A stretch of DNA of 64,000 nt from Apostichopus japonicus. Its lineage: Eukaryota; Echinodermata; Holothuroidea; Aspidochirotida; Stichopodidae. The stretch is from the NCBI RefSeq assembly GCF_037975245.1, contig NC_092571.1, forward strand, positions 7,854,501 through 7,918,500, written 5' to 3'. How positions within the stretch are numbered: position 1 is the first letter of the stretch; each line of letters begins with the position of its first letter. The notes below the pieces were generated by a model. The model had not been told where the DNA came from. It did not search any database and saw only the letters and a program-made list of their open reading frames with translations. Positions 27,801-56,100 of the stretch are shown in pieces. The position numbers were made by a program, and so were the translations under genes.

Positions 27801-30800
27801 TATTTGGAAACTGTCAATAGAATTTGAATGGAAGTAAATTGAAATGAATATAAAGGGTTGGCCCAAAAAGTCTTTTGGAAGAGAAATATGTCAATGGTAC
27901 AATTCTTCCAAAAACTTGGCCGAGCAAATTAACTTTGAAATTTGTGGTTGTAGCTCCACAGATTGTAAATCATGAAAGCAATATCGTGTTTGTTTTAATA
28001 GGGTGTGCAGGGATCAGGGATGGTAGATAGTCTGTTTACCTGATTAAACCCAAATCAGCTTGGGAAAGAAAAGGCCAAATGGTGCCAAAACAGTCAACCT
28101 TTAAATTTTGCACAAACGTGCTATTTTTGAAGGATTCTGACCTTCTGACGGACTTTAAGACCTTTCCGTGAGCATTGAAAGGTTCTGAACAGTCAAATTA
28201 TTGTGTGCTTGTGTTTGTTTTTTTTTTTTTGTAAATTCATATTTAAATGAGTAAATTATTGTTATTAGTTGTTATTATTATTATTATTATTAGTATGATT
28301 ATTATTATTATTATGATTATTATTATTATGATTATTATTATAATTATTATTCATTTGCCTGTAGATAAATGACACACTCCTAACATTGAAGCTCAATGGT
28401 AATAAATTTGGTGGTAAAGGGGGCATGGCCCTAGCCGGAGCCCTACAGGTGAATAAATGTCTGGAGGATCTCGATATCGGAGACTCAGATCAGGTTAGTA
28501 CACACATCTGAAAATCATTAGTAGACCATGTTGTAAATTGTTTCTTCAAAGTGAGAGAAGAAAAATTGAATTCAGAGGAATAATTTGAATGGAATATCAT
28601 TTGTTTATTCCTTCAAGTTGCTGGAGGCAAAATGAATCAATGTGATAGTGAGCGTATGTGTGTGTGTGTGTGTGCGTGTGTGTGTGTGCGTGTGTACACT
28701 GTGTAGGGGGGGATGTCAACAGGTTATCTCAAATGGTGTAAAAATTGGCTCAAGGGGTCACAAAGAGGTTATCTAAAATGATCTCATAATTGGCTGTATT
28801 ATCTGTGATTCACACTAGATGACTTTGGCTGGCAGTAAGTTGTGAAGTATTGCACAGTGTATAAAAAATGTCATGTAAACTCTCATGCATTTAATAACAA
28901 TTATTAAAGGAATAATTGGTGGCACTGCTAGCTCAAAATTGGTAAAAGAAAATGTCCATTTGTTCTATTTGTGTCTATATTTCACCGAGGAAGACTGTTC
29001 ATTCTGGATATTGAAACATTTTGGTATGAAAATTCTATACTGTAAAGTCCTTACCAGACAATGAAATGATCGAAGAAATTGTCACACACATTCATGGAAT
29101 TTGATGTAACAAAACTATTTCACATCACTTGGTGAAAACTAAATCACACACTCAAATAAAGGCCTTCCTTGGTTATAGTATTTGTAGTCACGGTTTGGGG
29201 CTTACTAGTAGGGTAGGCAATTGAACCCTAGGTCAGGCTACCTGAGCATTTTGTATCAGTTTTCGCACCGGTCTTGAAACATTCCTGTGATTGGAATACA
29301 GTTTCATATCTTCTAATATGATAGTTTTGACCAATTCTTACTTGAAACTTGAGTAAAACCCAGATTCCCACTCTTGACAATTTTCTTTTAAATGTGACAA
29401 TTTGTTTCTTCTAATTATTATTTTGTTACCACTTCAGGATACGCAGAGTATGATCGCTTTCGCTACAGTCCTGAATTTCAATGCTACCCTCAAGGCTTTC
29501 TGTATTAACAGACCTCTTCTCTTCAGCTATCAGGAAGAGACCACAGTACACTATGCAAAAATGTTACAGGTGAGTTCTAAAGCCCTTATAGGCAGAAGGT
29601 GGGGAATTCTGATTGAAGGTTGTTATCATCGCTCCAAGCAGTGCCTGTTTAACACCTTTTTAGAGCCCCAAGGCAGGGCACCATATCCTTTCCCACTCCA
29701 GCCTCCCCCCCCCCTTCCTCTTTATTACATTAACAGGAACAGCACACAAACTAATTTCAATGTTACAATAACTTTTGATATTTTTATCACAAATTTTTTT
29801 TTTTTTTTTTTTAATTGCAAGATTTGGGGGCAAATTTACAATGATGATGACAATTATCGCAAAATATGCTCCAACATCAACACATTTTTGGTTCTATAAA
29901 TACAAAGCTTACAACAGTAAAGGTCTTTTTTTCTTTTCTTTTTTTCCCTTCAGGTTAACAGTACACTGACAGAGTTACATCTTCAAAAGTGTGATATTAG
30001 AGATTTTGGAGCTGAAAGGCTTGCAGAAACACTGGTGGAAAATGTTGCATTGAAATATTTGGACCTTGCATGGTAAGCTTAAAGTATTACTGTTGCATTC
30101 AGTCATAACTCTGTGACATTATGATTAAGCTATGAAAAGTTAACGACATAATGGGTGGGGGAGGATGGAAGCTCACTGGATCCACCAATGGGAAGAGTAT
30201 GGTTCTACCACATTATATTAAAATACATTTCAGAATGTTTTGTTCCTAAGATCTCAAATAGCATAGTAAATAAAACAGCCAAAACTGTCTCTTTCGACTG
30301 CTATTATATTGAGGGAGTTTTTTTATGATTTGACTTTCCAGTGACATGGATATATGATTACATGTCTGTATTAAAACTTTGTACATGACTTTGTACTTTG
30401 TACAAAAAGAACTTTGTACAAAAATTAATACATGTCTGTATTAAAACTTATTTCTGATAATTATTGGGAAAATTGACATGTTCTCTTTTGCTCTTGCAGT
30501 AACAGAATAGCAAGAGACGGCGCTAAAAGTATTTCCAAGATCCTCCGACAAAATACACCATTAGAAGTTCTAGATTTGAGCTCCAACCGCATCGAAGATG
30601 ACGGCGCGATGTTCTTAAGCGACGCCATCGCAAATGCAAACACCCATCTCACAACGTAAGTAACAATGTATGTATGTGTTTTAGATCCTCCTGCAAGCAG
30701 GAACTCGCGAAGAAGCCATCATTGGCTTATCAAAGCCGCAAGCTGACCAAAGTCAGTCTCTTAGATTCATATTTAACGTCCATGATTATGAATTGTAAAC

Positions 30801-32359
30801 AACTCTGTAACTGGATGACATACATTAATCTTGGAGTGACTCCGACCAGGGACCTTATGATTGGAAGGCACCGGCGTTAACCACTGAGTTAACACTCCTA
30901 TGTGCTTCTTTTCCTTATGAACGTAATCCATCTCTCATAAGTGCTATGTAAAGTGAATGTAGAATGGTAAACAGATATGGAAAAGTTATAACCAAATTTG
31001 AAAAGAGCTAAGAAATCTTTTACTTTAACCTTAGAAAATAAAAAGTTGTGTGCAGTGCCAACTGAGCTATCTAACCATTCCTAAGCAAGCGATCCCTTTG
31101 TGAGCCATTTCTTTGATGGGGAGTTCAATTCGGAAGCTAGTGTTACTTGCATACAATTTAACCAGGGATCACATCCTCCCGGGGATCACATCCTCCCAGG
31201 GATCACATCCTCCCAGGGATCACATCCTCCCAGGGATCACATCCTCCCAGGGATCAAAACCTCCCAATTTCATTTGACAAGATGTAGACAGGGATGGGAA
31301 TTCAAGAGAAATCAAAGTCTTCTGTATTGAGCTAATAATTATTTTGTAGAATGTAAGATGTAGGTAAGGTGCTATGTAGCATGAAAAAGTATCTTTAGTT
31401 TGTTCAAAGATTATTTTATTTTTTTACTTTTATTTTTTATTTTTTGCATGACTATTTGATACTATTAAAAACTCCATGAAATTGCAGAATAAGTCTGATC
31501 TTCTAAACTTTATAATTGACTGTTTGTAAGTCATTGTTAAATAATAATGTGAAAAACGAAATATGAGGATATATGTCGCAAAATGTGATAGAGATTTGAA
31601 TAGTCCAGGTCTTGCCGTACTAATCTGTTTATTCATGATTTGTTCTGTCTCTAGGCTTGTGATTGGTCATAATTCTATCAATGGGACTGGTCTGTGTGCT
31701 GTCGCCAAGGCAATGGAAATGAAAGGAAATTTCAAAAGTGTCTTCATCTGGGGAAACAATTTGGAAGAAGATGCCTGTGTGGTAAGTTTTTTTTGGAAAA
31801 GAAGCAATGATATAAGTAACATTTAATCGTCAATTTATCAGGATGTTTCTTGAACTGTCAGAATTAGTAGTAGTATTAGAACGAAACTTGTCCAAAATGT
31901 AATATTCTAATTCTCTTCAACATAAGAGATATTTAAAACTAAAAGATGAATTTGACTTTGACTATGTGTTAGTAATCATAATAAAGATGATTCACTGAGG
32001 TTTTCAATCAGTCAGTCAGTCAAGCTGTCAGTCAGTCAGTCACGCTGTCAGTCAGTCAGTCACTTTTCAGCTATTTTTGTTTTAATTTTGTGTTGTTTTT
32101 CTCTTCTGTACAAGTGAAAGTCTGCTTACATGCACTGAAAATGAATATCTAACTTCTTTTTTTTTTTTTTGTATATTATTTATCCTAGGCTTTCAATGAT
32201 CTTGTTAAGAGTGGTAGACTCGACCCAAAGCTAACCGACGTGAACCCTTACACCGTGGACGGGCGAGTTTATCTCTCCGAATTGAACCACGGTTTGAGGA
32301 GACATTACTACTGGACGCCGTTCTTTGGACCGGATGTGGAAACAGAGGAGGACAAGTGA
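21846..32359 (+). CDS. LRRC34: Leucine-rich repeat protein, LRRC34-like (complete, 9 exons)
   Basis: Exons: 21846-21961, 25936-26125, 27451-27534, 28365-28493, 29438-29569, 29954-30072, 30500-30655, 31655-31781, 32189-32359. The sum is 1224 nt, or 407 residues, close to vertebrate LRRC34 (roughly 420-460). The first ATG (MSDPAGVLSRYEDVCEELEV) follows an in-frame stop. Ribonuclease-inhibitor-type LRRs run through the middle: VVSLDLRYNELTDNGAIHMS, LKFLSLMSNSLTSEGINLIA, LKLNGNKFGGKGGMALAGAL, LKYLDLACNRIARDGAKSIS, LEVLDLSSNRIEDDGAMFLS. Several exons are roughly one or one and a half repeats long. The C-terminus has VDGRVYLSELNHGLRRHYYW, which I recognise as the LRRC34 tail. There is no signal peptide or membrane segment. 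In mouse, LRRC34 has been reported as nucleolar and linked to pluripotency and ribosome biogenesis; that role is not visible in the sequence. Orthology is inferred from the tail and overall length. Confidence 0.9.
22921..23230. mobile_element. hAT-type MITE with perfect 8-bp target duplication
   Basis: 310 bp with perfect 14-bp inverted ends CAGGCGCGTAGCCA, flanked by TCTTGAAG at 22913-22920 and 23231-23238. The interior contains a G tract, GGGCAGCGCCCC and a T run. It lies in LRRC34 intron 1. The long open frames across it on both strands are not genes. Confidence 0.92.
24255..24855. repeat. 74-bp tandem array
   Basis: About eight copies of a 74-bp unit including cacatacacctaacattata and gagtcatgactagagtcac. 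LRRC34 intron 1. Confidence 0.92.
26228..26760. repeat. About 180-190-bp tandem array, three copies
   Basis: Each copy runs from actttattcctacagagtat through an aat-rich stretch to acggtcatcggtgttacaac. LRRC34 intron 2. Each copy carries an acceptor-like ttcctacag. Confidence 0.88.
26790..26932. mobile_element. Hairpin MITE, copy 1
   Basis: Arms starting tgtgtaaaagtaag and containing gatcctagcaggatcttctt pair with the inverse on the right. It is related to 41132-41264, and the similarity extends about 35 bp further left in both. Confidence 0.75.
27120..27240. repeat. AT-rich low-complexity tract
   Basis: Runs of atataaatatatg just upstream of LRRC34 exon 3. Confidence 0.7.
28260..28352. repeat. 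ATT trinucleotide microsatellite
   Basis: An attatt-type repeat directly upstream of LRRC34 exon 4, ending 12 bp before the exon. Confidence 0.85.
28656..28695. repeat. GT microsatellite
   Basis: tgtgtgtg run with two gc interruptions, LRRC34 intron 4. Confidence 0.85.
30664..30899 (-). mobile_element. tRNA-derived SINE-like element
   Basis: Read on the - strand it begins GGAGTGTTAACTCAGTGGTT, resembling a tRNA A box. About 45 nt later it has CCTGGTCGGAGTCACTCC, close to a B box (expected GGTTCGANNCC, with one base lost). It ends after gcttgcaggaggatc with a short tgtatgtatgtg repeat (acat on this strand). About 236 bp, in LRRC34 intron 7, starting 8 bp from the exon 7 donor. The family is not identified. 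Confidence 0.6.
31164..31267. repeat. 17-bp tandem array
   Basis: Six copies of gggatcacatcctccca, the last one changed. LRRC34 intron 7. Confidence 0.92.
32009..32066. repeat. GTCA simple repeat
   Basis: cagtcagtcagtcaagctgt-type repeat, LRRC34 intron 8. Confidence 0.8.
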
Positions 32360-35115: not shown

Positions 35116-38100
35116 TCAAAATAAGGTCCCGCTAGAGGGACCAGGTATCGGTGCTCCACTTAGGTGCAGAAGGTACAAGATGCCAGTGATTCCCCCGAAA
35201 AACACAGCTAAAATTAATAGACTCAACACCAGCCACTTCTTGTTCCAGCTGTACCTGCTGGGGGCACACGTAGAGAGAAGAGCTGTACACACAGTCAAGG
35301 TGTAAAAGATCGCCACCAGAGTGTTGATGGCGACTATTTTGCCAAACTTTGAGAATAATTGGATGGTGGTGAAGCAGAGTGGTATGGAGGCAGTGATTGT
35401 GGTGATCGCGCTGCTGAGTATGGATACGCCGATGGTACTGACCGCATGCTTGGTCTTCCACTGACGAAGTTTCGACCCCTGCAGCCAAAAGTCAATTTGT
35501 GAAGAATTAGACACGGATGCTGTTTTATAAATCATGTTTAATTCAATTCATCAATTATGTTTCATAAATTTAATAAAATTATACAGAACAAGGTCATGTT
35601 TTTAACTTGTAACAATATTCTGTATAACCCAGTTGGGACAAGTATTACTATAATTAATGTTCTTTCATGTCCCGCTTCACAGCACTTAATTGTACTGCCA
35701 GAATGAATATCATGTTTCTATCAGATTCAGGTTAGGCACTGTTCATATACTGTCAATATGAGTGCTTTGAAGCATGATATGGGAGGACAGTATAGAGTGG
35801 TATTAGCTTCAGAACACAGCCTCAACTGACTGCCTGTATTACGGTGTACTCAATTTCATTAAATTTTCTCACCTGATAGTATGAACATTCAAATTGTTTC
35901 AGCCAATCACGATGGTGTCTCTTGCATATATGTAAATGATCTCACATAAAAGTTTCTGCCAATACGTTTTCAGCAGTAAATCTAAAACCAGCTTTCTTGA
36001 TAATTACCCTATCATATGAAATTCCTCAAAACCTAACAAAACCTTACAACAAACAAAACCAAAACAAACCTAACAAGACCTAACAATTTTAAACCTCCAA
36101 AGTCTTTGTCAGGATGAAATATGAGATCATATAATTTTCTCCTTCATAGGTATTAGTCAGATGCAGAATCTCAAATGAGGGAATATATACGACACTCACG
36201 GTAAGACTCGAGGGCGCTAGATCCTTGGATGTGAGAAATCCTTCGATGAGATGAATGCAGTAGTCTACGGACGAGCCCACTAGGATTGAGAGAGATACTG
36301 CCTCTACCGCCCCCAACTGCCAGCCGAGAAGGTAGAAGGTACTGATCACCACCAGCATGATACCTATATACAGATTATAGGTAAAACCAGATCAAATGTT
36401 GTAATGCTGTCATAATGAAATGTTGCCAGATAAAATATGAAATATAAAACATATACAAATATAAAACATATATAAACATAAAATATAAAACCAGATCAAA
36501 TGTTGTAATGCTGTAATAATGAAATGTTGCCAGATAAGATATAAAATATAAAACATATACAAATATAAAACATATATAAACATAAAATATAAAACCAGAT
36601 CAAATGTAAAACCAGATCAAATGTTGTAATGCTGTAATAACGAAATGTTGCCAGATAAGATATAAAATATCAAACATAAAACATATACAAATATAAAACA
36701 TATAAACATAAAATATAAAACCAGATCAAATGTTGTAATGCTGTAATAATGAAATGTTGCCAGATAAAATATAAAACATAAAATATAAAACATATATAAA
36801 ACATATATAAACATAAAATATGAAACCAGATAAAATGTAAAACCATATAAAAATTTAGCCTGTGTGAAAAAAGTCATGACATAAAGCTATGTAGTTAATA
36901 TAATGTGAGCAATTTTTAGTACAAGTACAGAATTTTCCGGGTATCCGGGCTTCAAAATAATCAGAACTAGTATAGGTTGAGGGCTAGTGGATTGTAAGGG
37001 GGGGGGGGCAGGTGACACTGGAGATGGGGGTATTTTAAGGTGTGGGTGGGCAACCCTCATTTAGATGCAAAATCTGTGACAATTTATATACAAACCACCA
37101 AGAAGTCCTTAATTAGAGGAGTAAAAGAGTAAATTACATCCAAATTCTACAACAACAAAAAAACTTGTCTGAATATCAACCACAATGGAAAAAAATATTC
37201 TGAAAAGCAGTTTTGGCACAATCAAACACTGTCTCCCACTCCATAACCCCCACCCCACCCCTACCCTTCATCTAAATGTTTTCCCACCACCAAGCTATAG
37301 TTTACAAGCCAATATAACTTTTGTTCGTAAGTACCCTTGATTTTTAATTATTTGTAATATGTAAAAGATATTTCTTTCTATAGCTCACCTAAAATGGTTA
37401 CCAGAGCAATCATTGCGATTCCAATGTGGCCGGTGAACACAACCACAGATACAGCACAAACCATCAGAGAAAACACCAGACCATAGATGGCGCTAGTCAC
37501 TCCGACGATCTCCATGAAGACCTGTTGCCAGTAGTCGCAAGTCTGAAAGACAGTGTCCAATCCAATTCTCTCTTCTGAAGTGAGGTTAGCCAACATATCC
37601 TGAATGACCCTGTCCCAGGATGTGAAATCTTGATACGCATCGAAGGACGATTTACCTTCGAAGATGTTCTACGACCGAATGAGGAAGAAAGTTTTATCGT
37701 TTGCAAAAATTTGCTCCTCAAAATTCATGATTTGAACGACATAGAAGAAAGTAGAAATTAACCTATAAAGAAGAAAATAGGTATGCATGGATGAAAATGG
37801 TTTGAATTAAGGATAACGGCAAAACTATCTATGTATGTCCTTTTCATTTTTAGTTGTTTAAGATTAGTTTATTGTAAAGGGGATGTGCAATAAACCTTTA
37901 AGGACAATTTACGACGGATCTGTTCATTTTAAAAGGAGGGGGGTTGAGATGATTGAGATGGTTGAGATTGAGTGGTTGAGATGTAAAACGATGGTCTACA
38001 ACCAATTAAAGTCTACAACCAAGGTTGTGCTAATTACTTTTAATATTTTTGTATTTGTTTTTTATTCAATATCCTTCAAGTTTATTGCCTCAAATAAACA

Positions 38101-41100
38101 GGCAAAATACAATGAATATCACAATTCATCACCATACCAAGATACAAATGAATGCCTATACTTTGATAAAACCCATCAACAACACATCAAATAAAACTTT
38201 GTGCCTATTCATTAATGTAACCCTCTTCAGCATATCGAGACGAAAAATAGTGCCAATTCTTTAATAAAACCCCCAACAACATATCAAGACGAAAAATAGT
38301 GCCATTAACAACATATCAAGACCAAAATTAGTGCCAATTCTTCAATAAAACCCCCAAAACATATCAAGACAAAATTAGTGCCAATTCTTTAATAAAATTC
38401 CCAACAACATATCAAGACAAAAATTAGTGCCAATTCTTTAATAAATCCCTCCACAACTTAAAAAGACAAAAATTAGTGCCAATTCTTTAATAAAACCCTC
38501 AACAACATTTCAAGAAGAAAATTAGTGCCAATTTTTTAATAAAACCCCAACAATATATCAAGATGAAAATTAGTGCCAATTCTTTAATAAAACCCTCCAC
38601 AACATATCAAGACAAAACTTAGTGCCATTTCTTTAATAAAACCCTCAACAACATATCAAGACAAAACTTAGTGCCATTTCTTTAATAAATCCCCCACAAT
38701 TAACATATCAAGATGAGAATTAGTGCCAATTCTTTAATAAAACCCCCAACAAAACATCAAGACGAAAATTTGTGCCAATTCATTAACAAAACCCTCTTCA
38801 ACATATCAAGACGAAAATTTGTGCCAATTCTTTAATAAAACCCTCCACAATTAACATATCAAGACGAAAATTTGTGCCAACTTTTAATTAAACCCTCCAC
38901 AACATACCAAGACGAGATTAGTGCCAATTCTTTAATAAAACCCTCCACAAAATACCAAGACGAGATTAGTGCCAATTCTTTAATAAAACCCTCAACAACA
39001 TATCAAAACGAGATTAGTGCCAATTCTTTAATAAAACCCTCAACAACATATCAAGACGAAAATTAGTGCCAATTCTTTAATAAAACCCTCACCAACATAT
39101 CCAGCCGAAAATTTGTGTTTTCATTCTTAAAAGAAACAGTATAATTACCGATTCAAATGCCATTGTAAACCAAAGGACTCTATTATCGTGTAATCTGGCG
39201 TGACTTAGAGCCTTCTGATCCTTGACATAGTTGGGTTTTGGGAGGTTCTGACATTCAGGAACTGTCTCTGCCAATAGTTCTAGATACGGTTCCAGAGCTG
39301 CAGATTTAAAACAAAAGTGGAAAAAAAGAAACATATATTAGGTCAACATATAGACTCAACACAGGATATGTACGGAGAGCGGTGTGGGAGGGGAAAAAAA
39401 TCAGTGCCAACATTGTCCCCAAAGTTGTTATCTTTAGGAGTCTAGGTTAGTATTAATGCAGGTGACAAACAGATTCCTGGAAGCTCTTCATTTTTCTATC
39501 AAGAAAATTATTCTTTTCCTGCCTTATTTGGTCAATTTGATGTAAAAATTGGTATGCAAAATTTCATCCCTTTTGCATTATCCCCCTTCCTTTGAATTTT
39601 ACTGCCTGTTTTGGGCCACCTTGTTGTTGCAGTTGCATTTTGTGACCGACATTAGTACCATAAACATTCTGAGGGAAATGTTTGTAAACAAAGTATATAT
39701 ATACTGTAGTGCAATTATATTTATCCAGTCCCTCAGTTCTCCTTCCTTAATGGAACACATTTATCTACAACTGGATGAGTACAAAGAATCATCAGTACGA
39801 ATCATTCAAGTATCTGGAACCACCACATAATGTGGTATGGCACCACCCCCCCCACCCCCACCCACACCCGCAACAATATTCAGAGCAACATTTTTTTGCT
39901 GGTATAGTTTCTACACTTTTGAACAAAAAAACTGATATGACTTTTGTCACCCCATCCCATCCCCCTCCCACCCCTCCTCTCTCCATCCCTTCCTCCCTCC
40001 ACCCCCTCCCTATTCACCCCTCCCCTCTTCCACCCCCCCCTCATCTCAAGCTCAATAATAGGTACCTGAGTATATCAAAAATTAACAAAAAGAAGAAAAT
40101 TAATAGATTTACATCTTGGAAAGCATTCTGCACCACCTGGCTTCACCAAATCCACCCGATTGGCTAGATGGTGGCAAATTTTACACAGCGCCCTCAGTGT
40201 GTCTGTTCTCATCACATCGAAGTCTTTGTTATAATAAACCGTTCCCTATGAGGAGATAAACGTTAATTTGTTATTCACACCGAAAGCTAAGAGATGAATA
40301 TTTACCTGTAATTCATGCATGTCACTGACTGGGTGTGGTTTAATATTTGACCTGTCAATATGGTTCTCCAGTGTTTTTTATTTTTACTTTTATTTTTGTC
40401 TTTTTTTGTCCTTTTTTTTGCAGAGGGTGCCATTCTATCGGTCCTGATCTACGATGATTTTGGACAGATCTCTGACACAAAGAAACAGGATTACATGTAA
40501 GGGCTCAAAAGCATACGACATACCAGAGGAACTAGCATACAGACGTGCTAGGTGCATAACTAGTTTCGAAGTACCAATCATGCAGTTTGGCCGAACAAAA
40601 TAATGCATTAGAAAACACGAGTCATGGCAGATCTTAAAACACATTGTTTAACTTTAATTGAAACTTCAAAAATATCTTTCAAAAGATCTCTCCTTAAAAT
40701 AATTAAGAACGAAATTAATAACAAATAATAGGCCTACTGGTGGTGATCCTATCGTGTGGTGCATATATGGATCCCAGTCAGAAAGCGCCAGCTAATCAAC
40801 ATTTGTGAAAACACGTGGGACCAATAATGACAGCGCCCTCTATTTATGTTGGGCAACATTGGAGAGCACCCCCATTGATCAAGAGTCATAGAAGAATATT
40901 TAAAGGAGAAAGTTATCATTCACACATAACAGAGGTAAGTAATGCTTTTTGCCAATTATTAACTGTGAAGCTAGACAAGTGTGAAGTCATTGCAGACATG
41001 CATACTGAAATTAGTTTTTGTTTCTCCTCACACTCGGCATGCAAATCCAATATTTTAATTTTTTACTCTTTCAAAATAATATAAAACTGTTAGCAAACTG

Positions 41101-44100
41101 CTAATCCACTAGAGAGCTTGTGTGATAGAATGTGTAAAAGTAAGTTGGCCTGACGTTTCGATCCTAGCAGGATCTTCTTCAGAGGCTAAAAAAAAAAGAA
41201 AAAAAAAAAGCCTCTGAAGAACATGCTGCTAGGATCGAAACGTCAGGCCAACTTACTTTTACACCTTTTTTTAATATTCTTTCACGACGAAACACATGGG
41301 AATATCAATTTATCAATGTATTTTAATACAACAAAATTCATAGGTAACGTTCGAGTCATACCCAAACGCATTTCAAATCGTTGGGGTGTAAAAATAATGA
41401 AGGATAACGAAAAGCTTTATTCATTGATATATGCCACCTATATGGCCTTGACTAAACCTTGTGAATAAACTATACATACCTTAGAATCACTTAGAATTGT
41501 ATGATGGGACACGGTCCCTCTGTCCAGCCGACTGAGGCCGAACACGACGTAGACCGTCGCTGTGTTCCGTAAGATTGGCTTCGCAGCTGGAGGCCGGCAG
41601 CTGTGCTTCTCACAGGGGTCATAACCCTCTTGAGGTGAATTCTTGTCGAGTTGGCTGCTTCTCGGCGGGGAGAGAGTACCCAGTGGCATCTTTGTCGACT
41701 TTGGCAAAGAAGGTTCTCTTGGCTCTGGTCAAAAAAAAAAAAAATGAGGAATAATTTGGCTTTCAAAATCAGATTATTTCCAAAATGTATAAAGCATGCC
41801 ACATTGGCAGTCAACCCACTAACTGGTAGCTATATGCGTGGAACGTACATCCTGGGTTGCCTTATAGCTGGAGGTCATGCAGCTTAGATAGAAGAAAATA
41901 GTCCAACACAGTGCACCAATTTTCGAATACCCCAAATACTTATCAATATAGTCCAAATAAGTGACTTCAGGTGTAAATTCATTTCTCAAATACAAAGTCT
42001 GAAAATACCGCGAGAATTTTTTTTTATTATAAGTGTTACAAAAAAAATGTCAGTTTTCAGATCGAGTCAGTCTTTGCTACAATGACTGCATAACTGCACA
42101 GAATGTTCTATGTGTAGGATGCATGTATATGTTTCTTGTACTTGAGAATAGCCAGAACCTGAGGCAGGGCTGCATTTACCATTGGGCCATATGGGTCTGG
42201 ATCCAGGGTGCCCAATTGAAGGGGCCCTGATGTTCAACTACAAAAACAAGGCCTGGGGGGAGGGGCATAGCTTATTAGATACATTTCACTAAATATATCT
42301 TTAGATAAAAACAAGACTGGATTTGGTTAAATAGGAAATCCAGCTCTGCATGGCTGTAGGAATATAACATTCAAGAGTGTTGAAGTTGCAGATAAGTTTC
42401 AAATAGACAAATTACCTTTTTTCAGTGATTCTTTGCTTTGGAGGATTTGTAGTTCATTGCTTGTCACAGTTTGAGCATCGGTGACAATTAAATGACTTTC
42501 CAGCATATTTGGTGGCAATACTGAACAGATTTTTGCATCCTCAATTAAGTACTAGAGTATTCAGGGACATGACAACAAAATGTGTAGTGTATTAAATATC
42601 ATTTAAACCTCCCTCTCCCCTCCCAACAGCCATAAGTGGCAGTCAAAATAGCAGCTAGTGTGCTAGGAAACATCAATAAAACGAAAGGAATGAACACACA
42701 CCATTAGGGAAACAGTCCCCTTACACCGAAGGTGCAAAATTTTCCACTTGAATTGTTGCAAAGTGGCTGCTTATCTGGCTATACCACACATGGTTGAGCA
42801 GGTTTTGTAAGATGAGCAAGACAAGAATGACCACAAGATCGCTTATGCGAACTAATTTAATTAAACCAGTTTCACAGGACATAAGGGATTATATGCACTT
42901 CAATGAGCAATCAAGACAGTATAGAGTGTATAGCTGAAATGATATTGACTTCTTAACGTGTACTGTGTTGAGTGGAAGACTTGCATTTAAAACTCATCTC
43001 TGTACATGTCAAGACCTCAACTATCTTGTAACTATGTTTCTATGTAATATATAAATAATAACACAGATTTAGGATGACAGAAAAGCGAAGCGGGGGGAGG
43101 GGGGCGGAATGATACTTCCGCCCCTCCATATCTTTCACAGGGGGGTGCGGGGGGGCTGGCACCCCCAGCCCCCCGGTTCCTACGCCCTTGTGAAACAACA
43201 CCGACTCTGTTAAAATACAATCTTTCTCAGTCCGTTTTCTTGTATCTGCTCATATAAAGGCAGTTAAACAAAAGGTTGATGTGTCAGCTTTATGCCTGGC
43301 AAATACATAGCTGAAGGGCAAAATTATATTCTTTATGTTATTGCGAGTCCATGATGCATGTGAACTGGATGGAAAACTATTTGAGATAAACTGAAAGTCT
43401 TCTACTGTGTTTCAATTTCATGTCGTAGGCACACTAATCCTTTCACCAAAGAGTGATTACAATGATAACTTTTGCATTATGAATCTTATTTGCTGTTTTT
43501 TACAATATTTTTTTTTATATTGCTTCCTGGGCTTTGTTCAGCTATTACATTATATCAGCTCTTGGGTATCGAAAGTTTCAACGCGCATGTTGAAATAACT
43601 AGCATAGTGTTGGTTTCCAAAACTTTCCAGTTATTATTTGCAAGCCCAATTTTTGATAATTCTTTTATTTACATTTTTTTTGTAGTTGTCTCCACTTTAC
43701 AGCGTTAATTGTTTTGTATCTGTACATTTAATTGTTTTTGTATTGCTATGTTTTACTTTTTATGTATAACGTTGAATGTAAAATGCAGGGCCTTATTGGA
43801 AATCAGCTTTTGCTGAATAAGCAACCCTGGATAAAAATGCGAATAAATGAAAAATGTCGGGCATTCGGGCCTTCCATACACTCGCTCAGCGCCCGCAACA
43901 CAATTTCATAATCTAAGGTACCTCCCTCCGACCATCCTATTGATATTATGTGCTATTCGCCTCATAAGAATAGGAGGATGCTGTTAGCATTGAATGTTAT
44001 AAGGGGATCCGTAGATACAAATTGGCACCCGTGATCAAATCTCTGTATATTTAACTCGGTTAGCGTAAAGCTAACTTCTCCCGAGGACCTGAAGTATCAT

Positions 44101-47100
44101 AACCAATAGTGAAATGAAAAATATAATAATATACAATAATAATAAGAACATTAATATAAGAAAATGAATAATGACTGGGAGTCATTTTTCCAAGAACAAG
44201 AGCCATTTCTGAAATCACGTGAAGGTTGCCACATATTCCAAACTAGTATAAGCGCATAAAAAAAGAACGATAGCCGCCCGTTTTTTCCCTTCAGATCTCA
44301 GTACGAGAAACATGTATTTTATTTGTATAATAGAACAACTTTCGTTAATATTTTCCTACCCTAGTAATATGTCGATTTTACAAAACCTTCATGAAAACAG
44401 ACTTTTTGAAAATGGATTTTGAAGCTCAGTCAACAATTTAAGAAATGCTTAGGCCTACCGTTAAATACTGGCGTCAAAAAATACATTTCGTATTTATTCC
44501 AATAAAGATCCACAACATATAACAATGCTAAGTAGAGCTTACTTAAAGAGAAATAGAAGCTGCATGTACAGCATGGTCATTTTAAGTATCCAAGTACTAT
44601 ACAAAGAGATCGAGTTCACCGAAACATCCCTTTTCCTTATCACCTGAGGAAAACCGTCTTTTATAAATTATAGTGGGCCTACCATACAGTACTTTACATT
44701 TGATACAAAAGTTTCTTCTATACAACAGTTTCCCAAAATTTGTATGTGTCGCAATAGTTTTAAGTTTTAACCAAGGGCAGTACCATTCATAATTTGCATA
44801 TTACACCAAAATTTACAATCGGCGTCCAGATGGCGGGAAAATGTAACATAATGTTCAATCTGTTGGGTCGTTCCCATGGTGCGATGAACTTGGGCAAGTT
44901 GCCAAGTTCGAATGTCGATGACCTACTTATGTTCCGTGACCAATGTCAATGGGAATTATGTGTGTAAAAACTCGTGTTTTTCCACGTGTAATATATATAG
45001 AAGTTTTACGTAAGGGGAGCGAATTTCGGGGCGGCTCGTTGATTGTGAGGAAGCACTTATCTAATCATCAATACGTTTTTTTTCTCCAGAAAATGTTTTT
45101 GACTAGTAATTGGAAACTCAATGTATCAAGAAGTACTGAGTCTAGACCTTATCATTGCATTTTGGGTTAAGACAAATCTTCAAGTGCAAAATATTGTTTT
45201 TTCATTCAAGGTTATCGTGGTTTTCTTGCGAGGTGTATACGGCGTAACTTTCGATGTAGGCTTAGCATTAGGATCGGCCGATGCCTACCTAGTTTGCATG
45301 AATTTTTACCTAAATTCAATTTAATTTAACGGGAATCACTAAGCATGTCGGAAAGACAGGACTCGACTTACTACTAATACTTTAAGTTTAAAAGTTCACA
45401 ATGAAAATTTTTTAACTATCAACAAAGTCCCCACCTGTTTGGAACTTCAGACAACAATAATGTAACTTAGGGGCTACATAAATACGGGATTATAAACTAC
45501 ATATATAAGAATAGTACAGATTTATTTATATCGTTAATCGGCTGTTGTTTACTCCAGAAAATATACTTTCAATACGTACAATATCAATCTTCGTACAAAA
45601 GTTCTTAAAAATAAAAAAGTAGCGAAAGATAACTAGAAATGACATCGTGGAACCCCCTCCCCCCCCCCGCACTAATAAACGAATCCATTTCATTACAGCA
45701 TCAACTCTCAAGTACCGAACAGCAGTGTGTAACAGTACCGTACCCTAGGCTATAATAATATACAGTCCCGTGCGAAGATGGATTTAATTTGATATGCTCC
45801 CTTCGGTTTTGGATAAAAAATTATTAAATCGTTAAAATTATTATCACAAAATGTGGTGAAATGCATAAGGGTGAGATTTTGTACATGGGAACCTTCACAA
45901 TCATCGTTTGAAGGAAGAATAAATAACGAAAATTTCTGAATAACTTTGAGGTCTCGTAACATGCTGAGTTCACTAACGTTCGATATTTGGTGTAGGCTAT
46001 AGGTCCAAATTACTACGTGAAAAGTTGATTCGTTAATATGTCTAGGCCAGTGCGTAAACTGATAAGATATTATTCAAACTAAGAACACAGGAACCAGAAA
46101 TAAACGTGTTTTCTTTTCTTTAATTTAAATAGTAACACGTAGATATTTTTATTATGTCCTGGATTCCCGGGAATGATACCGAAACGAATGTAATAACCAG
46201 TTGTTTTCCCAATACCGGTAGTAGTTACACATTGCACTGTGATCGGGGTTAGTCAAAGCCGGGACCGGGATGCCGGTATTCACTTGACTACCGGGATCCC
46301 GCACAACCCTAGTAATGAAATAGCCTATCTTCCCTCAAAATTGGTACATTGCACTTAATGCAACTCTTCTCATGCATGTAACAAAGGCTTGTAGGTATCC
46401 TTGTGTATGTATAGGCCCCTACTAAACCACCTCAGGAGTTTCGCGGAAAAAGAAAAAGAAGAAGGATTTTCAAAAAAAAAATTCCAAAGATAAAAAAGAT
46501 GACGATTGTCCGTACCAAGTAACCATGTGTTTATGAATAGCGAATGGCCTAACCTACTAGATGTGTTAATGGCCCGAAAAGCGCCAAGAATAGTTACCCA
46601 AACTTTCCATCTCAAAAAGTATCTCAAACAAATCATCCATCTTCAATCTTTACCAAAATGTTAATTTTAATACCTAATTCTTACACTCCGACGTTATTTT
46701 GTACTTATGTTCAATATAATTCCGTTTATGAACAAATAAAAAATATGCCGAACTTTAGTGTTTAACATCCTTGTTCGTCACTATTATTAACTCCATTCAA
46801 GCTCAATTAGAAATTTATGCTTAAGCCAATCAAACTAAGTAAATAGTGACAACGTAACTAGTGTAGGATTACTCTTTAACGTTTCCAGATTGATATAAAG
46901 GAATGATAAGAACTAAAAACAACTCCAATGATGTTTCTAATAATAAAAAATTGCATTTACTTGTGCAGCATTAATTTGAACAAAAATATAGACCGTATTC
47001 AGAGGCCGGTTTCTCAATGTTACAACATAGCGTTAGGCCTAATGCGACAGCTATGGATTCGGGGCACATGAAAATCTCAGGTTTGGATGTAGTAACGTTT

Positions 47101-50100
47101 GGGAAATTTCCAAGCGTCGGTTATGAAAATTAGCGGTCGTCTGGTGTTATGTATTAAAGGCAAGCCAGACGTGGAAAAATCAGGAACCGGTGAATAAAAA
47201 TCACGAAAATCCGAACCGGCAGCTAAAGGGAACTAAGACACGGAATACACTTCATACGATCATATGTCGCGAGTACTGTATGTACGCCTGTAGATATAGC
47301 TGTGCATGCCTGTGAACAACGTTGATCTGTTGATCACTTGCATATAGCTGACACACTAGCTAATGCCGCGAGCAAACCGCATGTTCGTTGGTCCGTGTGA
47401 TAGGGTTAAGATAAGTGGTGTAAGCAGAGCTGAAGCTCGAGATAAGCCCAACCCGAGCTCCCCCGCTTGAGGTCGGGTTGGAAATGCAACTTCGCTGTAA
47501 GGGGACTGTTTCCCTAATGCAAAGCAAGGTCAAAAAAAATATATATATATTTTCTTAACTTTTTAATTATGATCATATGTATGCAACTATCATTTGGTGC
47601 CAGAATGGGACCTCCCACCCCCCTCATCCCTCCCTCCCACCCCCACCCCTCCCTCCCCCATCCTGAAAGCTGTAGGACATCTATTAGTAATGGACTTTAA
47701 CCTTTCATACAATATGTTTTACAAGTTTGGTAAAGAAACATATACTGACTGTCACATGCTCTTCTGTATACAACCCTAAGATTAACCTCGCTGAGGCAGC
47801 TTTCGTGTTTCAGGGAGCACTCGTTGACATGGGTGACCCCAAGGTTATCACAGACTGGATCCAACCGTTCCGAACATGAGAAATCACAGGAACAGATGGG
47901 ACCAACCTCTGGCTCCTCCCTGCAGACGGCATTGTACCTGCAATACGTAGTGGCACATGAAGGCTCTGTTTGAAGCAAAAATGAAAACGTCCATTTTTAA
48001 GTAAAAACAACTGAGGACACTTTTTTATTATAAATTTGTAGTTTGCATGATTCTGTCATCACAAACAATGTGCCTTGTTTTTTTAACCTTCCTTGGACTG
48101 ACACCTATTTAAATATGGAATTTTGTCTGAAATACATACTTTTATATACAACTTTAGCTATAGCTAGGATTTGAAAACACATGCAGTAAACAAGTTGTGA
48201 TATTTATTGGCGAACAATGCACATGTGACTGGCTGAAATGCCAACATGTCCGAGTGAGGATACAATGGGTAGAGGCTTTAAGTCTTTCCCAATTATGGCA
48301 CACAATATTTTGGAGCTCTCAGTAATGGATCGGTTCTGCTTCAACATATTATAGGTATTCAACCAAATACGCAATGCATAGCAAACTGCTTCAAACTGGA
48401 CTGAACTGACAAATTTGTTACAAAGAAAGGTCTGATGCCGGTAATCTGACCAAGTTTTGAATGGGGTGTAACAGAAGTGTTCGACACCACCATCAAACCC
48501 AGAAAATACACACTAGTGCACAGTCAATTCATGCAGCAACGGTCAATACCCATTACACAGTGTACATAGCAGCCGATGAACATCTCAGGTGCAGATAAAA
48601 GATAACAAGGTATCACGTTTCATTACTGTCTGCATTTTATAGTGACAAAAAAAACTTCACTTGCAAGCAACGGAAAGTTAACTTTTTTCAGAGGGCGGCA
48701 CGTGGTTTGGGGCGAGTCTTAAATGCCTTTAAGGAGTAGGTACATAGATTCATTTATGTGGTTTTGGGTGAGGGAGGGAGGGAGGTATTTGTTTCTGTAC
48801 CATGTATATATATAGCTGCTGCACCCAAACCACACACAAAACCACTAACCTGCAAGCTAGGGGATTAATATTTCATGAGGAACATATTCAATCACACCAC
48901 AATCACACTGTCTATTCTGCACTGCAGTCAAAGCAAGCAAGATCACATTCTATATAAAACTCACTGATTTGCATTTTACTTTTTATGTATATCTTACTTT
49001 CAGTCGAAATCGTTGGTACTTTCTGATGTCCGTTACCGGTCGGTGGACGCCTTGTGGTCACAGATGTTTCAGGTATATGAAGAATGGACTTCGTAGTTGC
49101 TTGGTGTTTAGGTGTCATAGGTTTGTGCTTGGGTGCAGGCAAGGGAGGGACTGTTGCCTGCACTACAGGGTTTGTTACTACCTGGGGTGGTTGGTAATAT
49201 CCAGAACAGGATTTGCAGGAAATATCTGCAGCACTAAAGTTGTAGGCTAGATCTAACAGCCTTTGAAGGTTAGTATCTTCTTGGAACAGAGCTGGCGGAC
49301 GAGTTGCAGGCTGGATTCGAGAGACAAGGCCTGCCGTGATGACAACTATGATGACATAACAAGCTGGAAAAATGCAGGCAAAACAATAACTAATTAATGA
49401 TGAAGGATTGAATCTGCCAAATTAAAGGAATAAGTCAGAGATGTTTCATATTAATCATAGCTGATCAAAAAATGCAAAGCAACATTTCACCGAAAGCATA
49501 TTTTTCATTTTATTGCATTTATTTGTTATTTCTCCTCAATATACAGGTTTAACAGTAAATAGTTACTACATAAATGTAAATACAACAAGGATAAAACCTT
49601 GCAAGACTTAACGAGTAGTGCCACTCTCTATCAAAGGAAAATATGTCAAAAGACAAAACAAAAACCTTCCCCATATACTCCCGGGGAAGGAAGAAAGAAA
49701 GTATGATCGTAACATATTGAGAAAAAAGAAAATCAACTGAAAAGAGGAACATATCTAAGATCCAAGAACAATGAAAGGAACAGTCTTAATAGTTACTTGA
49801 ATAGAATGAGCTGAGATTCTTTTTAAACGAGTGTGACTGGTGAAACAAAATTTCTCAGAGTATTAGGCAAAGAATTCCAACACGTAATAGCAAGATAACG
49901 TAAACTATGTTTTGTAATGTTAGTCCTAGGATGTGGCTTGTGCATGTTGTTGGCCTGTCTCATATTGTGTATGTGTAATTCTTTGTTGTGAGTAAAAAAA
50001 TATCTTTGAAGACGGGTGGATTAAGTATTATGATAAGCAAAAGTGGCTATACTTAACATTGATTAAGTCAGGAAAATTGAGAATATTGACTGAAGCGAAT

Positions 50101-53100
50101 AGCTTGCTAATGTGATCATTGTAGTTAGCAGAAAATGTATGGCAAATTGCTCTTTACTGGAGAGTGAAAAGTTTTATAATATTGTAAAGCATTGTACCAG
50201 ACCAAACTCTGTGCAGTGATGTATTTATATTCTAACGTAAATGTATACTCCTGTCTATCACGGCATGATGATGTATCTAGGGTAATTATCAGCCGATAAT
50301 TTACATAATATCACTCTGGGCACTCAAAATTGGAAAGTTTTGAAGGAAGAATTAAACTATCAATTGACGATATTCGGCTAGTGTCAAAGGCTGGCAAGAC
50401 AAAGCAGTTTTTGATAGTGTGAGTAACATGGTAATCCCACATAGACCGATAATGTGGATTACCTGACTCCCTCCAATGGCTTGAGTAATATGAATAATCC
50501 CACACGGACTGATAATGTGGATTACCCGTCCCTCCAATAGTGTGAGTAATATGATAATCCCACACGGACCGATAATGTGGATTACCCGTCCCTCCAATAG
50601 TGTGAGTAATATGATAGTCCCACACGGACCGATAATGTGGATTACCACTTCCTCCAAAAGTATGAGTCATATGACTATAATCCCACACCGACCGATCATG
50701 TGGATAAGCACTCCCTCGGATAGTGTGAGTAATATGACTATAATCCCACATGCACCGATGTGGATTACCACTCCCTCCAACAGCTTGAGTAATATGATCA
50801 TCCCACATGGACTGATTTTGGAAACTTTTTATTTAAAATGCATTTAAATGATGTTCTTACCTATGATAACCCAACGCCACTTAATGACAGGTTCAGCAAC
50901 AAACTTCCTCAGGAAGGCTCCTATAAATCTTGTCAGGCTGGCAGTCTCTTGTTTCTCATCTGGGATCTTCTTAACGTCATCGACAGTTGTGTTATCGAAA
51001 TGTTGACGTAGAACTGTGTCGTCCATATTATCCCGTCCCTCTGGTAGGTCTGATGTTCAAATTTATGAGAAAAACAGGAAAGGTATAAAATAGGAGTAAA
51101 TCTTTTGAAAAAAAACTTTGATTTTCTATTAAAAGGAATTCCTGAAAACAAAATGCAGTGTATACAACCAATGATAGCATAGTACAAGAAATTTATGTAA
51201 AAAGCAAACTTTCATACTTTTATAGTATAAGTAGTATAAATAGCAAATTGTTTAATTATTTAGGCCTAAGTGGAAGGGATTCTGAAAAGAAGGAACAAAA
51301 AAGTTGTAAGATTGCAAAGATGAGCAACAAAAAATATAAACAATTGAACTATATATTAAACAGAAACAAGTCATATATGAAAATGGTGATTGTTTTTAGA
51401 TAACACCAAACTTCCATCCCTAAAAATGAACATTTGTAGCTGTTTTGGGGGTTGGGTTACTACCTGTTACTCTTACCAAGTCATTTAATATTTTTCACTC
51501 TAAACTGATTAACTCCTAAATCTAGGATGACCATAGAAAGTTGTAGATCGTTAGGAACGACCGCTGCAGGCATGCAGTTACTTCAGATCGTATCACATAA
51601 CCATTTTTATTGAGGAGTGACCCCAATTTAGACATCAAAATTCTTAACAGACATTAAGGGGACTGAATTTAACAATGAAATGTCCTCAGTGAAGGGAATC
51701 CATTTGATATTACCTTCAGAATGTGTTTTTTTTTTTTTTGGTGACATTGAAAATGAGCAACCATTACTTGATATTTTAGTGTGATGGATCACATAAATTA
51801 TTTCCTTTGTTCTACGAAAGTCTTGACTTTCACCCCTTTTGGAATATTCATTAATTCATAGCTTGTTACCATGCAAGTACTGTCTTGGTAATGAAAGGTG
51901 TCCTTTGTCTACGAATCACGCCTCACGGTAGTATTCGACCTCTTGCATAACTTCTTGATTTTACCACAAATCCACACGCCACTTGCTATAGAATCTGCCG
52001 ACAGGAAGAGTCTATTCAAATATCCTCGCTGTCTTTATCATTATTTTGACCAGGAATTAACTAGTGTCTCACTCTGTACTAGCTATCGATATGTGTACAA
52101 ACATTGTTGCTGTTTGCTCCACAGCCTTATTCTTATGCTTATAATTATCCTTATACTTATATTTCTTTGAAAGCACTAATCCTGGCTATTATACCCAGTG
52201 ATATTCTGGAAACCTCGATAGAGAGACGAAAGATAAATTTTTGCTTGTTAATTCATTTTTTTTGAGTCTCCACATTAGCATATTTTCAGGCAACATATGA
52301 CATCAAAATTGCCTTACCTCGTGTGCCAAGCTCCTCATCAACAACATCTGGCAATCGAATGACATCATCGTCGAGGGGTCCACCAGTCGGAGGGGATGAA
52401 GGTGATGACACTGCAGAGAGGACCATGGGTCCATCAAAACCTTGATTGATAGCTCCAGCAACAGCAGTCTGCTGAAAATCTGAAGGAGTCTGGATAATGT
52501 CCGATGACTTCCGGCTTATTTTTCTGAATCTATGACATTAACAAACAGGAATGAAAGCTAGAATCACAAACATTTTTATCATAAATCATTGGTACATTAT
52601 AAAGCAGAAACAAAATTGAGAGCCCTTACAGAAAAACAAGCTCGAAGTAAACTTGCATAAGCTTGAATTTCCTTGCATGGGCAAGCTAGCAAACTGGCTT
52701 GAACTTTCATGAAGCATGCTTGTGCAAGCACGCAAAGCAAGCGGCAAGCTTGCACGCTTCAGATGCTCGTTTAAGCTTTTAGTTTGTAATAAGGTAGCTT
52801 TGCACAAGCTTAATCTGTCTAGCTTACACAATCTCATTTGGTAAGCGCTTGCACAAACATATTTTGGTATGCTTGCGCAAGGGTATTTTGGTAAGCTTAA
52901 ATCGCATATAGCATATTAGCTGGACGTTTCAACTGTAAGCATGCAAGCAGCATGCATGCAGCAAACTTATCTTTTCTGTATTAATTAGGGAGACAAGTAA
53001 AAACCACAACAAACATTTAATTATTCATAGCAACTATATACCAGTCTATAAAAAAATTTAAAAAATAAACAGACAAGAATGATGTAACAGTACAAAAGTA

Positions 53101-56100
53101 TAGACTCCCTCACAAAATCTCCACAACTGGTAGAAAAATAATTACTGTAAGTGGTCATTTATAAATTTAGTAACGTAGTGACATAAAACCTGTCAGGAAA
53201 TGCACTTTGACCATAAGTCAGCTGGGTCTTGAAATCGTCTGAGTTTAGTGGCGGTGACGAACAAATTACATGAAATGACATCTGCCATCATTAATGTTTC
53301 TAAACAATCTTAATATGTCACGAAAAGTGATGGTCGACTTACAAGATTTGCTCGCAATGAAGATACTTGTGCCAAAGAGCGAGGGAAGCAGGCATGATAA
53401 GGAGGACTAATATCCAGCAGTAACTAATGATGAACGTCATAAATAGGCCAAACTGGTAAACAGCGGGTATCTGAAAGTTTGAAAGATTACGACAAACATC
53501 AAAAATCAAAAGGTCACCATTATTGCAGCCAACTTCAGCTTGGTCCAATCAAACATTTGTCCAAAAAATGCCAACACAAGTTATACTGAGGTCTTTTCAT
53601 CAGACAAAATGGTTAAAAAAATGATTAAATGTTGACCACCAGTTGACACAATGGTACAACCCTTAATCAGACGGAATCAGAAGTTGGAGAAAAAATAGAG
53701 GGCGTCTGACAATAATTGCTTGGCTGGATTCATTGTGTGGCCCCTTTAAGCTACTGACAGCTAAGGAAGTTCATCCCGATGTAACATCATATCATAGAAA
53801 ACTTTTATCATTGATGCAATATGGGTTAAATAGCAGATCCAGGATGTCTCAGAAGAGAGGTTTGTGGGAGAGGATAGATATCAGAATAGATACTACCAAC
53901 GTAGTGGCGTGTAATAATTAAAACATTGGTAAAATGCAAGTAATGCCTGTGAATGTAGTTTGCTAAATTTTTCAGCTATGCACTTGTTTGAAGCAAAATT
54001 ATGTTTGCAGCTAATATTTATTGCCATAGAAAGATTCCAAAGTCGGTTCTAACAGGGAAAAGACCCCACCGTCATCACTGATTCAGACATGTGACCGATA
54101 TGGTTAAGACAAATCCCCTCTTCCCACCCTCACCCAACCACTCCCACCCAGTGTAGAAAATTGCACCCCCCACTACTGAAAGAAAAATAAATTGCGTGCC
54201 AAGAAATATTTGGTTATATTTTTGGGGCAAGTCGTTACAGCCTCCCCCCCCCCCCCAAATCAAATTGTGCCCCTACGCCTATGATATTTCCACCTTTTGA
54301 AATCTACTGCCTTGGACCTGTATACTGAAATACCCAAAATTTCTGTGACATGTAGTCAGTACAGAATACAGAACAGAATAAAAAAAAAAGAGAAAACGGT
54401 CGAAATGGACTGAAAAGAAATCACAATCTATAAATTTGCTAATAAACACAACTTCATTCAGTTCAGATTCTTATTAGTAACTGGAAAATATTCATGCCTG
54501 ACGACATACATCAATTTCGTCATGTTTCTCTAAAAAGTGGTTATTTTTATTAACCTCATTCTCCCATTTCAACGCCCCCTAAACCCAGCACCCTGGGCAC
54601 GTGCCCTCCCTTGACCCCCTCCCCTAGCTACGTCACTGCTCCCACCTACTTCCCAGTAATGCTAAAGTTTTAATCAACAAGTGTCTAACTGACACACTGT
54701 CATACAGGTCTGTTAATTCACATGTACCTGAGAGGCCATGTTAGCTCCAAATGCTCCAGCAGTAGTGAAGGAGGTGAAGAAAGTGGCTACCCCTGCAACT
54801 TTAATGGTATGAGCCATCCTCAACTTCAAATCAGTGAACTGTACAGCTTGTCTGAATGTGTTGACAAATACGAAGACGTCGTCGACCCCTGCGAGGACAG
54901 TAAGAACGACGGCACATTTAGAAAATGGAATTAAAAGAAAACTTGATCCAATCAACACATCCCAAAAATCCGGGATAGAATTAGATTGCTACTATCAGTC
55001 AGTACACCCGAAATGCTCCCTGTTTTGTTAATCTAACACAAAGTATTCATTAGCACAACCTTGCAATTAGGGTACTTATGTGGACCTAAGTTATAGTCTA
55101 ATTATATATCTCACTATGCACCATTTGACATCTACTTTTTATTTTAAGTCAGTCCTGGGAAATGTTGAAACTAAGACACACACTCCTAAGCTGTGTGCTA
55201 AACAAATGGATGGCTAAAAATGACAGAGGAATTTGATTCAGTTCTCGACATTGAGTCACATTTCCAAATTGATTAATTATAATTAAGACACATGCAAAAG
55301 GCAAATTTGAAAACTTAAAAAGTTTCAATTTTTATCTACTTTGGCTTTTACTGTCAAGTTATGATACTTGGGTATTCTAGCTAATAAAATACTACTTTGT
55401 TGTATCATATGACATAAAAATAATTGTCAAAAACCTAGAAAGGGAAAATGCTGCTTTAATTTACATACCAATTCCAATCACCACAAATGCAGAGGCCAGA
55501 TTGAGCAATCCGAGGGCTTCTATTCCACAAATTACGTGATAACTGAAGTAGGCCCAAGAGAAACTAGCCAAAATGCTGATGATACCACACAATGTCAGCC
55601 ACACTGAGAACGATGTCAGAACAAAGAGCAAGGTTGCTATGGCGGCAAGAGTAGGGATGGCCAATAACAGATCATGGCGGATTGTAGCCGAGATTTCCGA
55701 ATCGAATATTTCATTCCCGCCATAAAGAACATCGACGGTACTGTTAAGAATCAATAAAAGATGTGTTAAGATGATGACGATGATGGAAACATATGAAAAC
55801 ATAGTGTCAACCTCCACAATAATAATATGCCCCTCAATCCCCCACCCCATCTGCCCCTCCCACCTCTATCACCACTCTAAGGCTGCACAGTTGCGACCAT
55901 CTAACTATGACACGGGTGGCATGCAATGCCCATGTAAATTAAGCCTATGTAAATTAAGCCTATTACAGTATATGTATCACCAGTTGTATGTAGGATGACT
56001 TAATCAGGCACAAAATTAATTTTGAAATGTTGTAGACATTTTAATGTTTGAGAAATGACAGAGACCAGCTGGTACTACATATTTTGAAGATGCATATCTT

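Follow-up and report, generated by a model that had tools for sequence, protein, structure and literature searches.

An exon of 216 bases in Apostichopus japonicus raises the question of whether a small cysteine-rich module belongs to a membrane transporter of the Dispatched family, and what such a module would do there. The window, that is, the whole stretch of 64,000 nucleotides that was analysed, had received a first-pass annotation that placed a 72-codon exon with phase 1 at both ends at 47750-47965, between exons at 48998-49363 and 41480-41724 of a DISP3-like RND protein. The exon was borne out by its borders and by the rebuilt frame, and the coordinates of the two flanking exons were right; these exons join in frame with or without the module exon. 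We conclude, with a probability of about 0.8, that the module exon belongs to this Dispatched-family gene.

We built a gene model of 13 exons on the (-) strand, running from 55740 down to the stop codon at 35116 and from the sterol-sensing domain to the C-terminus. The exons, in the order of the gene, and one possible further exon are as follows.

55469..55740, (-) strand: exon B, sterol-sensing domain
54728..54888, (-) strand: exon C, sterol-sensing domain
53343..53470, (-) strand: exon of the sterol-sensing domain, final helix
52318..52529, (-) strand: exon D, presumed intracellular stretch that links the sterol-sensing domain to TM7
50861..51049, (-) strand: exon E, the stretch preceding TM7, phase 1-1
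48998..49363, (-) strand: exon F, the TM7 region, the conserved start of ECD2 and a Pro/Thr-rich stretch, phase 1-1
47750..47965, (-) strand: exon with the ten-cysteine agrin/follistatin-type Kazal module, 216 bases, 72 codons, phase 1-1
41480..41724, (-) strand: exon G, a linker, PCxxxxC and the VYVVFG part of ECD2
40113..40245, (-) strand: exon G2, ECD2
39149..39297, (-) strand: exon H, ECD2
37389..37668, (-) strand: exon I, closing part of ECD2 and the transmembrane segments after it
36200..36363, (-) strand: exon J, second-half transmembrane region
35116..35478, (-) strand: exon K, the last transmembrane segments and the stop codon
61830..61951, (-) strand: possible further upstream coding exon, unjoined, with an open frame and AG and GTGAGT borders

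The joined model forms one open frame of 958 residues with the module and 886 without it, with consistent phases and AG/GT borders, and the frame is kept when the module exon is skipped. The joined exons cover neither the N-terminus nor TM1 nor ECD1; for DISP3, 13 segments are described in the available part of PMC5278513. Elsewhere in the window, the introns hold tandem repeats at 38.1-39.0 kb and 50.4-50.8 kb, with multiple offset matches between the copies of the locus, and open frames at about 25874-31826 on the (+) strand looked by eye like leucine-rich repeat exons of a neighbouring gene.

The module exon begins after an ordinary-looking acceptor (AAACAG/AG) and ends at the donor ACA/GTCAGT. 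Read from two bases in, it encodes 71 residues free of stop codons. The donor matches the consensus at six positions out of 9, the same as three other donors of the model, and carries C at +3, being the sole donor of the 12 with neither A nor G at this position. A second in-frame donor lies 27 bases downstream of the exon and matches at 5/9. The exon is probably spliced into the mRNA. Three of the 12 non-terminal exons are 1-1 (E, F and the module exon), indicating that phase alone is not distinctive in the host gene. Thus, the symmetrical 1-1 exon of the first-pass annotation is present, but its phase does not hold as a distinctive sign by itself, as E and F share it.

The module contains ten cysteines with spacings of 4-5-9-1-3-7-10-6-13. 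A Pfam search of the module exon matched Kazal_2 at 37.2 bits (E 3.2e-9, cut-off 22.8) over all 48 profile positions, and Kazal_2 was also above its cut-off within the spliced gene model. Kazal_1 gave 19.9 bits, under its cut-off of 21. Kazal_2 and Kazal_1 were the only families listed at E up to 1, and the absence of a FOLN match is why we call the module agrin/follistatin-type and not a follistatin. At E up to 1, phmmer matched the module to 26 PDB sequences. The best solved relative was agrin (8s9p), with E 3.5e-23 for the whole chain and 28.7 bits for the best single module, and follistatin-related protein 1 (FSTL1) matched at E 2e-6. The alignments with agrin, FSTL1 and follistatin span the module from residue 2 or 3 to residue 70 or 71. 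OATP chains matched weakly (E 0.40-0.42), and Dispatched chains were absent from the 26 matching sequences, though present in the library searched. A single-sequence AlphaFold2 model, made without an alignment, gave pLDDT 48 and pTM 0.30, values that support no fold. The ten-cysteine agrin/follistatin spacing that had been read from the letters was therefore confirmed by the cysteine spacing, the Kazal_2 score and the agrin match; of the two families that had been named along with it, Kazal_2 was found and FOLN was not.

For the host gene, Pfam returned the Sterol-sensing domain at 47.1 bits (cut-off 22.3) and the Patched SSD at 43.7 bits (cut-off 23), and MMPL at 16.2 bits, under its cut-off of 20.5. 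The host protein without the module was searched against the PDB, and DISP1 (7rph) scored 90.4 bits, above the best NPC1 (31.1 bits) and the best PTCH1 (26.4 bits). Judged by sequence similarity, the host belongs to the SSD proteins of the Dispatched family and is nearer to Dispatched than to Patched or NPC1. DISP1 itself is a separate gene of this genome (L005, on contig C8), and its 966-residue long open frame scored 893 bits to 7rph and gave no Kazal match in Pfam at E up to 0.01. The reference used for DISP3 was a provisional human sequence, not a database record. Its C-terminal part gave 321 bits with the host and 54 bits with the DISP1 of this genome. The identity of the host to this provisional sequence was 43% over 414 residues and 65% over 37 residues, on either side of the module, with the 37-residue block lying in exon F. 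The host gene is most likely DISP3, as far as a provisional human sequence can serve for comparison. In the available text of PMC9695228, DISP1/2 and DISP3 form separate clades and an annelid protein clade is sister to DISP3, so the host could also be a DISP3-like sister group; DISP3 is given as lost in Asterias rubens and Ciona in the part of PMC11077316 at hand. Of the earlier description as a DISP3-like RND protein, the Dispatched family was thus supported by the SSD and the 90.4 bits to DISP1, and the DISP3 identity fits, on the strength of a provisional human sequence.

Other SSD loci were also seen in this genome. Long open SSD frames occur on C15, where a listing of closed frames for the locus L006 showed none of 300 aa. 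On C4, C9, C14 and C16, several loci carry paired long SSD/Patched frames of roughly 340-400 and 560-600 residues, an arrangement that we take to be reminiscent of PTCHD genes.

The exon order after the sterol-sensing domain, together with the topology of Dispatched 1 (PMC8630017, in part), places the module in ECD2, between TM7 and TM8, where it would be displayed on the cell surface. ECD2 starts with a conserved block ending in CKSCSGYYQ. Next come a stretch of 67 residues, of which 14 are Pro, 11 Thr and 4 Ser, the 68-residue module, a 35-residue linker containing 7 Pro and 6 Ser, and then YDPCEKHSC and VYVVFG. The Thr/Pro-rich stalk reported in the first-pass annotation is this 67-residue stretch, which adjoins the module. 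It may act as a flexible arm, perhaps O-glycosylated, with the module at its end. In the provisional human DISP3 sequence, these two blocks are about 195 residues apart, and the stretch in between has no significant match to the window and no module, suggesting that this part of ECD2 is free to vary.

A collinear second copy of the locus was found 3.67 Mb away on the same contig, at G000:C11:11534000-11543999 and 11554000-11593999. The comparison covered the window and the next 10 kb, and left out G000:C11:11544000-11553999. Pieces of more than 500 bases were 86-99% identical between the copies, with indels, and were collinear except for one repeat match. All 13 exons of the model align to the second copy at full length and gap-free, with 13 AG acceptors and GT donors at 12/12 non-terminal exons. 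The second copy has no stop before the end and differs at 16 residues, none of them in the module, and its module exon is identical at 216/216 bases. Ungapped non-coding identity was 99.5%, 99.0% and 99.4% in three nearby stretches, and 95.9% in the intron between exon F and the module exon. Since nearby non-coding DNA is almost as alike, the 216/216 identity says nothing on selection or constraint; an attempt to judge selection on the module exon from the two copies was dropped for this reason, the non-coding stretches being 99.0-99.5% alike. The 86-99% identity would suit an unmerged haplotype as well as a recent duplication. Because the copies are possibly two haplotypes of one locus, we did not count the second as an independent gene, and its use as an independent duplicate in support of the exon was set aside. 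Exon searches of the genome found no further close copies of the gene besides these two.

The two copies differ in the introns around the module exon. Those of the second copy measure 821 and 1,206 bases. In the window, the intron after the module exon is 6,025 bases long and contains an insertion of about 4.8 kb (about 42702-47519) that the second copy lacks (L001, near 4865). The insertion has terminal inverted repeats with 24 bases alike, and these matching ends mark it as a probable DNA transposon that is polymorphic.

This genome is rich in Kazal exons: of 232 candidates, 150 were scored and listed. Among the other Kazal exons, the four closest to the module exon (E up to 0.001) are 24-37% identical to it and cluster at C11:22.89-22.90 Mb. 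With borders chosen by eye, all four fit a reading as one 1-1 module each, 207 to 219 bases long, with two possible donors for one of them, and the module exon thus has its 1-1 form in common with its nearest relatives here. Class 1-1 modules as a rule enter phase 1 introns, according to the available part of PMC3927616, and exons E and F, being 1-1 as well, show that the host offered suitable phase 1 introns. As evidence for shuffling, phase by itself is weak and module identity is strong. The module was apparently gained by exon shuffling, which the four 1-1 Kazal relatives support. An identity of 24-37% is too low to single out a donor gene, and it does not suggest a recent gain. Two further observations came from the genome: G000:C10:6.67-6.93 Mb holds dozens of Kazal exons with similar scores, many about 960 bases apart, and pieces of mitochondrial COX1 lie on G000:C29:14745-31219, besides the full match on C35. 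Read with genetic code table 9 (echinoderm and flatworm), the COX1 on C35 has the expected Asn in GFGNWLIP and RMNNMSFW, whereas table 5 does not yield it; of the two groups, the COX1 sequence was judged to be that of an echinoderm.

Several other readings of the exon were weighed against these results. The abundance of Kazal exons in the genome and the 6,025-base intron after the module exon would suit an exon from another gene nested in the intron, or an assembly error. However, the exon is present in both copies, lies on the strand of the gene and fits its neighbours in phase on either side; the insertion with terminal inverted repeats accounts for about 4.8 kb of the long window intron; and the second-copy introns of 821 and 1,206 bases leave little room for a nested gene. 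Within 41725-47749, the gene's strand has no frame of at least 30 residues with at least 6 cysteines, and the other strand has three such cysteine-rich frames, none of them Kazal-like by eye. We regard a nested gene or an assembly error as highly improbable. A refinement that is compatible with our main reading is that the exon is real but optional, with forms that carry and lack the module made in different tissues and the form lacking it being the main one. The surviving frame on skipping and the unusual +3 position of the donor point this way, while the donor's 6/9 matches, equal to those of three other donors of the gene, and the ordinary acceptor point the other way. The Kunitz exon of APP, a single-pass protein and not a transporter, is alternatively spliced. 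APP is cited as having gained this domain by exon shuffling (PMC3927616, in part), so that a membrane protein there also acquired an inhibitor-type domain, Kunitz and not Kazal; this parallel favours an optional cassette here. We consider such a cassette possible, at somewhat less than even odds.

The role of the module leaves further alternatives. Its membership of the Kazal_2 family would fit a protease-inhibitor head that blocks a cell-surface serine protease and so shields the transporter or its ligand. Under the Kazal P1 rule as we take it to apply, P1 is the second residue after the second Kazal cysteine, and here this residue is Glu (C-S-E-R), unlike trypsin- or furin-type sites. Furin cleavage of the extracellular domain of Dispatched 1 is required according to the available text of PMC8630017, making protease control a theme of the family, but agrin and other proteins use their follistatin domains to bind ligands of the TGF-beta family (PMC2874008, in part), and the function of the OATP Kazal domain is called elusive in the part of PMC10709409 at hand. 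An inhibitor head is therefore quite unlikely in our view. Alternatively, the disulphide-rich module might merely stabilise the extracellular part as a structural clamp, with no partner. In OATP1B1, the Kazal domain in the largest extracellular loop is disulphide-tied to another loop, and the simulated protein opened to an abnormal width once this tie was cut (PMC10709409, in part). In the present protein, however, the module sits between the 67-residue Pro/Thr-rich stretch and the 35-residue linker, which is poor geometry for a clamp, and its ten cysteines could all pair inside the module. We judge a clamp to be unlikely.

The explanation that we favour is that a class 1-1 exon with one agrin/follistatin-type module entered a phase 1 intron inside the ECD2 part of an echinoderm Dispatched-family gene. 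The protein would be a sterol-sensing, RND-type exporter with the module carried on ECD2, and the module would hold a partner, such as a TGF-beta/BMP-type ligand, a matrix component or a lipid acceptor, near the lipid exit path. In Dispatched 1, the ligand is held by ECD1 and ECD2, and sterol is speculated to take a path between the two domains (PMC8630017, in part); by analogy an agrin-type module on its arm would hang beside this path. The N-terminal part of agrin, with its follistatin domains, binds BMP2, BMP4 and TGF-beta1 in the available text of PMC2874008, and this ligand binding favours a binding head over an inhibitor. Tentatively, and at less than even odds, we suggest that the module may bind an extracellular partner as a tethered head. 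The bolder proposal, that echinoderm DISP3 may be an exporter of lipid or lipidated ligand with a growth-factor-binding head that captures a BMP/TGF-beta-type ligand, or else a lipoprotein or matrix acceptor, next to the exit path, coupling sterol or morphogen export to ligand presentation and possibly splice-switched, is a long shot.

The gene resembles several known systems in part. The blocks flanking the module align with vertebrate DISP3/PTCHD2, but the provisional human sequence has a stretch of ~195 residues between them and no module. DISP1 (L005 on C8 in this genome; 7rph) has the sterol-sensing domain and the two-half RND-type architecture in common with the host and is its best solved relative, whereas the DISP1 of this genome is a single long open frame with no Kazal match. 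The same ten-cysteine Kazal_2 module occurs in agrin and follistatin, in several modules there as against one here, and those are secreted or single-pass proteins in contrast to a multi-pass transporter. The OATP/SLCO proteins are multi-pass transporters as well and have a Kazal domain in an extracellular loop, in OATP1B1 the largest one (PMC10709409, in part), but they belong to a different transporter superfamily, their module is tied by a disulphide to another loop and not borne on a Pro/Thr-rich arm, and their matches (E 0.40-0.42) are too weak to argue that the inserted module shares an ancestry with theirs. The Kazal-bearing OATPs nevertheless make a Kazal module on a transporter less unprecedented than the first-pass annotation had implied. 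We found no report of Dispatched joined with a Kazal or follistatin domain in the open literature; one expression study, in its available part, names Kazal and a dispatched homolog as two separate genes. In the available text of PMC11077316 and PMC9695228, which mention DISP3, neither "Kazal" nor "follistatin" appears, and "Kazal" is absent from that of PMC8630017 and PMC5278513.

Taken as a gene structure, the finding is well supported and moderately surprising. To our knowledge, DISP3 has no settled transport substrate or partner, and the module, removable as a single exon with the frame intact, offers a natural handle on the role of the ECD2 loop. If the bolder proposal is true, the ECD2 of DISP3 would be a site where lineages insert different modules, with an agrin-type module here as against the different stretch of ~195 residues in vertebrates, judged from the provisional human sequence. 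The module exon would also add an RND/SSD exporter to the transporters with Kazal-type modules.
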